A DNA stretch of 64,000 bases from Gammaproteobacteria bacterium (GTDB taxonomy: Bacteria; Pseudomonadota; Gammaproteobacteria; AKS1). Made by a program: the position numbers and the translations under genes. Within the stretch, counting starts at the first letter, position 1. Every line of letters begins with the position of its first letter. The stretch lies in assembly GCA_027006175.1 (NCBI GenBank), contig JALTKS010000118.1:1-64000 (forward strand), in the 5' to 3' direction. Below are positions 31,505-35,236 of this stretch, piece by piece. The notes below the pieces were generated by a model. It was not told the origin of the DNA, did no database searches, and worked only from the letters and a program-made list of their open reading frames with translations.

Positions 31505-32332
31505 ATGAAAAAACAATATTTATCAGGTGGTTATAAAATATCGACCCTGTTCGTTGTCAGCGCCATATTCTTGCTTATGCTGCTTAGCAATGCCGCTCAG
31601 GCAGCAACGTATACCTTTGTTGTGCAACCTATTTATCCACCAAATAAAACCATTGAAGCATTCACACCACTGACAAATTATTTATCTAAACAAACAGGCC
31701 ATACTTTCAAATTAGTGACTGCGGTTAACTTCCTGAGTTACTGGCAAAATATGAAAAAACCAGGGAAATATGACTTCATTCTGGATGCGGCTCATCTAAC
31801 CGACTACCGGCTAAAACGCATGAAATTCAAGGTCCTTGCCAAACGTGCAGATGCCGTGTCATATACTCTGGTAACAAATGAAAACACCGCCATTATTGAA
31901 CCTGAGGAGCTGATTGGGAAATCGCTCGCAACCATTGGTTCACCCAGTTTAGGTATGCTGCGATTGGAAGAAATGTTCCCAAACCCATTACGCCAACCCG
32001 TTATTATTGAAGTTGATAACTCACTCGATTCAATTAAGAAAGTGCTTGATGGCACAGCTCAGGCGGCGATTGTGCCAACGCCCATGGTGGGTGGTTTTCC
32101 AAACTTACTCACCATTACCACTACCGAGCAAGTACCCCATACCGCTGTTTCTGCTTCACCACGTGTGCCTGCGGATGTTCAGGTTGCTGTACGTAAAGCG
32201 CTGATTGAAGCAAGTAAAACAGACGCGGGTAAAAAAATGCTTGCTGACATTAACTTCCCTTCTTTTGAGAAAACCACCGCGGCAAGCTATGACGGTTTCG
32301 CCAGTTTATTAGAAGGTGTTTGGGGTTATTAA
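31505..32332 (+). CDS. Orphan PhnD-like periplasmic substrate-binding protein
   Basis: A 275-aa exported protein with a long signal peptide (about 1-33, ending AQAA). The mature domain matches phosphate/phosphite/phosphonate-type binding proteins: YTFVVQPIYPPNKTIEAFTPL, then YLSKQTGH.FKLVTA and YDFILDAAHLTDYRL. No permease or ATPase gene is adjacent, so it is an orphan binding protein; such proteins can serve sensor kinases or distant transporters. Ligand is unknown; the phosphonate label should not be taken literally. Confidence 0.82.
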   Translation: MKKQYLSGGYKISTLFVVSAIFLLMLLSNAAQAATYTFVVQPIYPPNKTIEAFTPLTNYLSKQTGHTFKLVTAVNFLSYWQNMKKPGKYDFILDAAHLTDYRLKRMKFKVLAKRADAVSYTLVTNENTAIIEPEELIGKSLATIGSPSLGMLRLEEMFPNPLRQPVIIEVDNSLDSIKKVLDGTAQAAIVPTPMVGGFPNLLTITTTEQVPHTAVSASPRVPADVQVAVRKALIEASKTDAGKKMLADINFPSFEKTTAASYDGFASLLEGVWGY

Positions 32333-32410
32333 AAAACTTTACACAATTTTACTTTTCCATTGTCATTTATCTTTGACATCTTTCCATTTGGCTCTATAAT
32401 CTCTGGTCAT

Positions 32411-32470
32411 ACAGCGCTGATTTGAATTCAGATTGCGGGCGCTTAATAAATACGGCTAAAGCGTGTGGAA
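32411..32470 (+). ncRNA. SAM-II-like riboswitch aptamer upstream of metK
   Basis: The sequence follows the SAM-II pattern as I recall it for the metX element: GCGC-TGATTT, ATTGC, second GCGC, AATAAAT, then GCTAAA. P1 pairs AGCGC (32413-32417) with GCGCT (32439-32443). The 3' GCTAAA (32455-32460) would form part of the pseudoknot that encloses SAM. The aptamer lies about 65 nt ahead of metK and is followed directly by a terminator. SAM-II is best known from alphaproteobacteria, so its presence here is notable. Confidence 0.85.
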
Positions 32471-32483
32471 CCAGATTTTAAAA

Positions 32484-32516
32484 ACCCGCCTTAGTCTAGC
32501 TAAAGCGGGTTTTTTT
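32484..32516 (+). terminator. Riboswitch expression platform: terminator before metK
   Basis: Stem ACCCGC-C-TTAG / CTAA-A-GCGGGT with a 5-nt loop and seven T. The 3' arm CTAAAGCG (32500-32507) repeats 32456-32463 in the aptamer. The 5' arm can therefore pair either with the aptamer segment (antiterminator) or with its own 3' arm (terminator). SAM binding should hold the aptamer segment and favour termination. Confidence 0.88.
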
Positions 32517-32533
32517 ATGAGGAATACACAATA

Positions 32534-33691
32534 ATGAACGAACATCTTTTTACTTCCGAATCAGTTTCTGAAGGCCATCCAGACAAAGTCGCCGATCAAA
32601 TTTCTGACGCCATCCTTGATGCATTACTTGATCAAGATGCAAAATCACGCGTTGCCTGCGAAACCATGGTCACCACCGGCATGGTCATGATCGCCGGTGA
32701 AATCACCACCGATGCCTGGGTTGATATGACTGAAACAGCACGCGGCGTCATTAAAGAAATTGGTTACAACAGCTCTGACATGGGCTTTGATTGGGAATCT
32801 TGTGCAGTACTGACATCAATTGATAAACAGTCGGCGGATATTGCGATGGGTGTTGATGAGTCAGATGATCATGAACAAGGCGCAGGCGATCAAGGCATGA
32901 TGTTTGGTTATGCTTCAAACGAAACCGACGTACTGATGCCAGCACCGATTACTTATTCACATCGACTGGTACGCCGTCAGGCGGAAGTGCGTAAAAATGG
33001 TACCTTGCCGTGGTTACGCCCGGATGCAAAAAGTCAGATCACCTTTCGTTATGAAGATGGCAAACCCGTTGCAATTGATGCCGTGGTGCTTTCAACCCAG
33101 CACACGGAAGACGTAAATCTCTCTACGCTACAGGAAGCGGTCATGGAAGAAATTCTTAAGCCTATTCTTCCGGCTGAGTGGTTACATGCGGATACCCAGT
33201 ACCATATTAACCCTACCGGCCGTTTTGTTATTGGTGGTCCGGTTGGCGATTGTGGCTTAACCGGTCGTAAAATCATTGTTGATACCTACGGTGGTATGGC
33301 GCGTCATGGCGGCGGGGCTTTCTCTGGCAAAGACCCAAGCAAGGTGGATCGTTCTGCTGCTTACGCGACCCGTTATGTGGCAAAGAACATTGTTGCCGCG
33401 GGCATTGCTGACCGCTGTGAGATTCAGGTCTCTTATGCGATTGGTGTATCAAAACCCACATCGGTGCGCGTAGAAACGTTTGGTACCGGTAAAATCAGCG
33501 AAGAACGCATTATTGAACTGATTGATGCACATTTTGATTTACGTGCCGGCGGACTGGTTAAAATGCTGGATTTACTCCGCCCTATTTACCGTTACACCGC
33601 TGCTTATGGGCACTTTGGTCGAGAAGACATTGATCTGCCATGGGAACGTACCGACAAAGCTGATGCACTAAAGGAGGCAGCTGGTCTTTAA
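32534..33691 (+). CDS. metK: S-adenosylmethionine synthetase
   Basis: A 385-aa enzyme making SAM from methionine and ATP. Signatures: [20 protein letters not shown] at the N-terminus, [12 protein letters not shown] (near 118) and [19 protein letters not shown]. The start follows GAGGAA just after the terminator T-tract. Regulation is probably by the SAM-II-like attenuator. It is followed by ahcY under its own riboswitch. Confidence 0.98.
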
Positions 33692-33710
33692 ATAAGTTAT
33701 CCTTCAACAC

Positions 33711-33790
33711 CCTGCTAGCATGAGGGACGCTGCAGCGAGATCATCTCGCCAGGCTCGTGCTAGCAGTTCCAGAACAACCGCGCCCACCGA
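33711..33790 (+). ncRNA. S-adenosylhomocysteine (SAH) riboswitch
   Basis: P1 is a 9-bp stem CTGCTAGCA (33712-33720) with TGCTAGCAG (33758-33766). The conserved core reads GAGGGACGCTGC ... CGCCAGGCTCG, close to the SAH consensus GAGGAGCGCTGC...CCGCCAGGCTCG. The pseudoknot pairs GGG-A-CGC (33724-33730) with GCGCCC (33780-33785), followed by CACC. It lies 25 nt ahead of ahcY with GAGGT as ribosome site. SAH riboswitches turn expression on when SAH accumulates. Confidence 0.93.
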
Positions 33791-33814
33791 CTTTGAACCT
33801 GAAGTGAGGTAGAC

Positions 33815-35236
33815 ATGAACGCCGTTATTGATCCAAATTTTACTGATTATAAAGTAGCTGATATTTCTTTAGCCGAATGGGGCCATAAAGAAATCGCCAT
33901 TGCCGAAACCGAAATGCCTGGACTCATGGCATTACGTGAAGAATACGGCAGTGAACAACCACTCGCTGGCTGTCGCATTATGGGCAGTATTCACATGACC
34001 ATTCAAACTGCTGTGCTAATTGAGACACTGGTTTTCTTAGGAGCTGAAGTGCGTTGGGTATCCTGTAATATTTTCTCAACACAAGACCATGCTGCAGCAG
34101 CGATTGCGGCACAGGGTATTCCTGTGTTTGCATGGAAAGGCGAAACCATTGAAGAATACTGGTGGTGTACAGAACAAGCCCTGATGTGGCCTGACGGTCA
34201 ATTCCCCAACATGATTCTGGATGATGGTGGCGATGCAACCTTATTAGTCCATAAGGGTGTTGAGTTTGAAAAAGCCGGCGCTATTCCAGCCACCAAAGAT
34301 GATGACAACGAAGAATACAAAGCGATTCTTGATGTATTACGTCGCACTATTTCTGACGGTTCTACGCATTGGCAAGATACCGCTGCCAGCGTTAAAGGCG
34401 TAACCGAAGAAACAACAACGGGTGTACATCGTTTGTACGAAATGCAGGAAAAAGGCGAACTGCTTTTCCCTGCCATGAACGTTAATGATTCCGCCACTAA
34501 ATCAAAATTCGATAACCTCTACGGTTGTCGTGAATCACTGATCGATTCAATCAAACGTGCAACAGATGTGATGATTGCCGGTAAGATTGCGGTTGTACTC
34601 GGTTACGGTGATGTGGGTAAAGGCTGTGCGCAGGCATTCAAAGGCATGGGCGCAACCGTATGGGTAACAGAAATTGATCCTATCTGTGCACTGCAAGCAG
34701 CAATGGAGGGTTACCGTGTTGTTGATATGAATGAAGCCTGTTCACAAGGTGATATTTTTGTCACCACCACCGGTAACATGAATGTCATCAACCATGATCA
34801 CATGGCTGCTATGAAAAACGAAGCCATTGTCTCAAACATTGGGCACTTTGATTCAGAAATTGATATTGCCTCACTTGAACAATACGAATGGTCTGAAATC
34901 AAACCACAGGTTGATCATGTTATTTTCCCTGATGGCAAGAGAATTATTGTTCTGGCGAAAGGTCGCCTGGTGAACCTGGGTTGTGCAACCGGTCATCCAA
35001 GCTTTGTGATGTCAGCTTCTTTTACCAATCAGGTAATGGCACAAATCGAATTCTACAAGAATTCAGATAACTACGAGAATCAGGTTTATATTCTGCCAAA
35101 AATTCTTGATGAGAAAGTGGCCCGTTTACATCTGAAAAAAGTTGGTGCTTATTTGAGCACGCTATCTCAGGAGCAAGCTGACTACATTAGTGTGCCGGTT
35201 GAAGGTCCATTTAAACCCAATCACTACCGATACTAA
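33815..35236 (+). CDS. ahcY: S-adenosylhomocysteine hydrolase
   Basis: A 473-aa NAD-dependent enzyme splitting SAH into adenosine and homocysteine, removing the inhibitory product of methyltransferases. Signatures: [24 protein letters not shown], the proteobacterial insertion around 150-190, NAD motif [16 protein letters not shown] (near 263), and C-terminal PFKPNHYRY. Regulated by the SAH riboswitch directly upstream. Confidence 0.98.

Follow-up and report, generated by a model that had tools for sequence, protein, structure and literature searches.

The question raised by this locus is whether the leader of a gammaproteobacterial metK, the gene for S-adenosylmethionine (SAM) synthetase, contains a riboswitch through which SAM would limit expression of its own synthetase. 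The leader comprises 201 nt between metK and the gene for a phosphonate-binding-type periplasmic protein (31505-32332). It was analysed within a stretch of 64,000 nt (the window), which corresponds to positions 1-64000 of contig C118 of genome G000 (2.47 Mb). A SAM-II-like aptamer followed by a transcription terminator had been proposed here in an earlier reading of the DNA (the original prediction). The features of the locus, with the basis for each, are as follows.

32373-32400, plus strand: sigma-70 promoter (TTGACA 32373-32378, 16-nt spacer, TATAAT 32395-32400), with 12 of 12 consensus matches
32413-32461, plus strand: SAM-II (RF00521) aptamer, from the Rfam match, pocket residues and P1 covariation
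32413-32417 with 32439-32443, plus strand: aptamer P1 (AGCGC with GCGCT), read from the letters
32419-32423, plus strand: aptamer L1 (GATTT), read from the letters
32433-32436 with 32455-32459, plus strand: aptamer P2b pseudoknot, from ATTGC (32432-32436) and GCTAAAG (32455-32461)
32444-32454, plus strand: aptamer L3, containing AATAAAT, read from the letters
32454-32463, plus strand: antiterminator strand GGCTAAAGCG, overlapping the 3′ strand of the ligand-binding pseudoknot and pairing with 32487-32496 in the predicted fold
32480-32516, plus strand: intrinsic terminator (stem 32480-32495 with 32499-32514, U run ending at 32516), predicted by folding
32518-32524, plus strand: likely metK ribosome-binding site TGAGGAA, 9-10 nt 5′ of the ATG at 32534, read from the letters
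32534-33691, plus strand: metK, S-adenosylmethionine synthetase, 385 aa, with Pfam domains S-AdoMet_synt_N, _M and _C above their cut-offs
33716-33792, plus strand: S-adenosylhomocysteine (SAH) riboswitch aptamer RF01057, 50.9 bits against a cut-off of 37 (E=1.9e-6)
33815-35236, plus strand: ahcY, S-adenosylhomocysteine hydrolase, 473 aa, Pfam AdoHcyase 504.6 bits

Identity of the aptamer upstream of metK

Every element of the SAM-II pattern named in the original prediction was found in the leader. A search of 228 nt against all 4227 Rfam families matched RF00521 to positions 32404-32479 with 32.0 bits (E=8.1e-6), and a whole-genome search with this model returned the leader aptamer at E=2e-5. 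Although significant, the match falls 4 bits short of the curated cut-off (36), and a gathering-threshold scan did not list the aptamer. This cut-off is a curation choice, passed by only 30 of the 136 matching genomes described below; a same-genus homologue lies above it with 36.4 bits. A second SAM-II copy in the window's genome is located upstream of metZ.

All of the fully conserved pocket residues of structure 2QWY (U10-U12, U20, U21, G22, C23, G42, C43, U44 and A45-A47 in its numbering; PMC3764141) are present, and map to 32421-32423, 32433-32436 and 32455-32460. The P2a portion of the pseudoknot is very short in the window and its covarying pair is T-T here. The fold of the leader was 3.9 s.d. 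below dinucleotide shuffles of the same leader. Judged by its sequence, the metK leader holds a genuine SAM-II riboswitch, with SAM as the predicted ligand.

Other families were also compared with the leader. SAM-V, which the original prediction had paired with SAM-II as a model to search, gave no match even up to E=10, the SAM-II long loop family RF01726 reached 18.7 bits against a cut-off of 44 (E=0.24), and no other SAM riboswitch class gave an adequate Rfam match.

The promoter listed above was the sole one detected in a scan of 32250-33850, and its position would put the transcript start near 32407, just 5′ of the aptamer. A promoter score of at least 9 of 12 was found ahead of the aptamer in 102 of 137 related leaders, compared with 7 of 113 shuffled stretches, and the -10 element most often ended 7-9 nt 5′ of P1. 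A promoter close to P1 is a layout already described for SAM-II by Corbino et al. 2005 (PMC1273637). The leader shares with the family as defined there (RF00521, SAM_alpha) P1, the pseudoknot P2 and the GATTT and GCTAAA pocket residues, together with a promoter a few nt 5′ of P1 and an intrinsic terminator before a SAM or methionine gene, predicted to act as an OFF switch. The targets differ, being alphaproteobacterial metA, metX, metY/metZ, metC and hom in that study and metK in a gammaproteobacterium here.

SAM-II leaders across the class

The original prediction regarded a gammaproteobacterial SAM-II as unusual, which did not hold. Such placement has been published since 2007: Barrick and Breaker 2007 reported SAM-II in gammaproteobacteria, with terminators frequent beside SAM-II in alpha- and betaproteobacteria (PMC2258182), and Meyer et al. 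2009 found SAM-II to be commonest in alpha-, beta- and gammaproteobacteria (PMC2704228). RF00521 matched 136 of the 369 class genomes sampled at E<=0.01, where chance would yield about four; the 14 control genomes gave no match. With 136 genomes matching and 30 passing, the counts indicate that the 36-bit cut-off hides most SAM-II of this class. One locus (L241) carries a clear SAM-II without an RF00521 match even at E=0.05.

A set of about 138 distinct leaders was assembled from 100 further stretches and the earlier loci. The collection pattern demanded the core motifs (GATTT, TTGC and GCTAAA) and four P1 pairs, which prove little in themselves; GATTT and TTGC are invariant in the 138 leaders, having also been used as collection criteria. 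The outer (fifth) pair of P1 was no such criterion. It formed a standard pair in 105 of 138 leaders and occurred as AT, CG, GC and TA; 1000 shuffles, which ignored relatedness, averaged 58 such leaders and reached 74 at most. One P2a pair also covaried, with 87 Watson-Crick pairs compared with 67 when shuffled and none of 1000 shuffles as high, relatedness again being ignored. The P2b strands (UUGC and GCUAAA) are present but invariant and therefore carry no covariation signal. Most of the leaders precede methionine or SAM genes.

Several further observations were made in this set. Two SAM-II aptamers lie about 100 nt apart at nine loci (L034, L043, L135, L139, L141, L203, L220, L222 and L225), and several of these pairs precede genes without an obvious methionine role, such as a MoxR-like ATPase in L043; tandem SAM-II and SAM-II/SAM-V arrangements have been reviewed (PMC9481103). 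One genome (G248) has five SAM-II copies, followed by genes for small proteins and for others that match no Pfam family. Matches to RF02424 (Bp2_287) occur on the reverse strand of SAM-II leaders (L003, L006, L008, L011, L015, L189 and others), and this Rfam family probably represents SAM-II and its terminator, assigned to the wrong strand. Leyn et al. 2014 described a metXZ RNA element in betaproteobacterial metX/metZ leaders, comprising a pseudoknot, a GC-rich conserved segment and a terminator; compared by description, it may correspond to SAM-II (PMC4239095).

Terminator, antiterminator and the predicted switch

The terminator alone was calculated at -17.9 kcal/mol. A generic terminator scan did not list it, while folding and a dedicated scan did. 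Its 3′ arm repeats an aptamer segment, as had been noticed at the outset, with CTAAAGCG at 32456-32463 recurring at 32500-32507. The further claim that its 5′ arm has two competing partners agrees with the folding of nascent transcripts from the predicted start at 32407, which switches from an antiterminator to the terminator. P1 together with the antiterminator pairing of 32454-32463 with 32487-32496 was predicted for transcript ends 32495-32506, and the terminator was the predicted minimum from transcript end 32510 onward.

Among the related leaders, 105 of 139 have a terminator within 150 nt of the aptamer. Before the 3′ arm exists, the GCUAAA strand is the dominant partner of the 5′ arm in 95 of these 105, and the two form 9.0 expected pairs on average, compared with 2.9 for a shuffled arm. 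A complementary, CTTTAG-like segment is present in the 5′ arm or loop of the terminator in 79 of the 105, and CTAAAG in the 3′ arm in only two. Because the complement is widespread and the repeat so rare, the exact recurrence of CTAAAGCG in the 3′ arm appears as a trait of the window's genus, and the competition between 5′ arm and aptamer strand as the general feature.

Pairing conserved in relatives had been named as a check on the original prediction. P1 covaries in the set of about 138 leaders, but the antiterminator pairing hardly does. A covariation test of the flanks of this pairing gave none that was clear in the same set. The pairing itself is conserved, each leader's own pairs being only slightly stronger (-11.8 kcal/mol) than swapped partners (-11.2 kcal/mol, with none of 2000 swaps as good). 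The near-absence of covariation follows from the ligand pocket, which fixes GCUAAAG. The pattern is uneven among leaders upstream of metK, since three of them (L165, L210 and L224) have no recognisable terminator and three of another family have a weaker antiterminator pairing.

These elements suggest the following mechanism. RNA polymerase would start a few nt 5′ of P1. At low SAM, the aptamer 3′ strand GGCUAAAGCG (32454-32463) would be free to pair with CGCCUUAGUC (32487-32496) in the 5′ arm of the terminator, and with the antiterminator formed the polymerase would continue into metK. At high SAM, GCUAA would be locked in the P2b pseudoknot with AUUGC, and the freed 5′ arm would pair with the CUAAAGCGGG arm to form the terminator, ending transcription before metK. 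SAM should favour termination because the antiterminator strand contains the GCUAA that SAM binding would lock.

A comparable case is the metZ SAM-II of Sinorhizobium meliloti, in which SAM binding is likewise predicted to release a terminator, yielding a short RNA, and where the levels of mRNA and short RNA shift with SAM in vivo (PMC9373788). That riboswitch differs in preceding metZ and in belonging to another bacterial class.

Other readings of the leader were weighed against SAM-dependent termination. The aptamer might chiefly control translation, or might rely on another antiterminator, in which CCCGC in the terminator arm would pair with the conserved GCGGG beside the P1 3′ strand. In 76 of 105 leaders, compared as isolated 15-mers, some other part of the aptamer matched or bettered the antiterminator strand in pairing with the arm, and Leyn et al. 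proposed GC-rich regions 3 and 4 as the antiterminator of the metXZ element (PMC4239095). However, when the whole nascent RNA was folded with P1 formed, the P1 3′ strand/GGG segment was dominant in only two of 105 leaders compared with 95 for GCUAAA. The ribosome-binding site of metK (about 32519) is also located past the terminator; either route is considered unlikely.

It is very improbable that the hairpin simply attenuates transcription irrespective of SAM, or is a leftover terminator, beside a functionless likeness of an aptamer. The RF00521 score under the Rfam cut-off would fit such a relic, but against it stand the conservation of pocket residues from family to family, the covariation of P1, an almost constant promoter spacing, and the methionine or SAM genes behind most leaders. 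A functional RNA on the opposite strand, in the form of the Rfam 'Burkholderia sRNA' RF02424, would agree with the match of that model to the minus strand at 32515-32405 (18.5 bits, E=0.026). This is scarcely credible given a cut-off of 70, far above the score, and promoter, gene and U run that all lie on the plus strand; at least 55 of the 66 RF02424 matches in the class are antisense to RF00521 matches. Very probably, then, the metK leader is a SAM-II riboswitch that would act by transcription termination as a SAM OFF switch, the dependence of termination on SAM being a prediction from folding.

metK as a target and the SAH riboswitch behind it

The original prediction judged metK to be an unusual SAM-II target, and the collected leaders bear this out. 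About 100 of them precede metZ-like genes, and metK is a minority use, with 13 of about 138. Rarer neighbours, assigned by protein sequence, are metF-like genes (L005, L147 and L179), methionine ABC transporter ATPase-like genes (L010, L019 and L144), a homocysteine methyltransferase-like gene (L014), a metX-like gene (L148) and a LysR-type regulator (L149).

The 13 metK-linked leaders occur in six families: f1 (the window and genome G002), f44, f81, f103, f123 and f54. At 10 of the 13 loci, from five families and including the window, an SAH riboswitch scoring above cut-off lies just behind metK. The f54 loci (those of the three leaders without a terminator) have a metF-like gene behind metK instead, with no SAH match within the stretch examined. 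Promoter-like sequence was seen by eye between metK and the SAH element in some other families. In the window, the SAH aptamer begins 24 nt past the metK stop codon and the promoter scan of 32250-33850 found no consensus promoter between them. Because of this short gap and the lack of a consensus promoter, transcription likely reads through from metK into the SAH element and ahcY as one unit. Genes resembling metF, bioA and rsmE follow ahcY.

Within the genus, a search for MetK found it only in G000 and G002. The absence from the other two genomes is probably an effect of assembly, since both are incomplete and the SAH element of one (G003) sits at a contig start. A contig search with MetK in further genomes, which possibly left out near relatives, returned no metK locus with SAM-II upstream. 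The MetK tree was largely unresolved between families, with only f1 and f44 of the SAM-II-metK families grouping firmly. The metK aptamers of f1, f44, f81 and f123 were mostly closer to each other than to the metZ aptamers of their own families. This hints, on the basis of short sequences, that these four may share descent.

RNA control of metK has precedents in the SAM-Chlorobi motif and the SAM/SAH riboswitch, and the Chlorobi operons include ahcY (PMC2864571). Those RNAs have other folds, and neither is described there as sharing an operon with a distinct SAH riboswitch ahead of ahcY. The SAH riboswitch of the window is an ordinary, above-cut-off member of the family known before ahcY (RF01057; PMC4239095), and differs in its position directly behind a SAM-II-controlled metK. 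Leyn et al. 2014 exclude metK from the genes under SAH riboswitches and report SAM_alpha from Rhizobiales and Rhodobacterales only, with none targeting metK (PMC4239095). No report of SAM-II before metK, or of the order SAM-II, metK, SAH riboswitch, was found in the literature searched, which left subscription journals mostly outside and is weak evidence of novelty. What is new here is metK as a SAM-II target and its pairing with an SAH switch; the riboswitch family and its mechanism were already known.

In Escherichia coli, metK is controlled by the repressor MetJ. MetJ is absent from the window's genus. With metK under a SAM OFF switch and ahcY under an SAH ON switch, opposite metabolite switches would be combined in one unit. 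A tentative extension is a two-switch operon, in which SAM-II would stop the whole operon at high SAM and the SAH riboswitch would permit ahcY expression only at high SAH, so that ahcY output might track the SAM/SAH ratio, requiring low SAM together with high SAH. This would amount to control of methylation capacity by RNA only, without MetJ, kept in at least five families, and is put forward as a possibility. The SAM synthetase itself would join the targets of SAM-II, giving the shortest possible feedback loop, and SAM-II feedback on metK would be linked within one operon to an SAH switch governing the SAH-removing enzyme. A genome that lacks MetJ, and in which about 1.3 kb separates the two switches, offers a clean natural system for testing how SAM and SAH signals combine.
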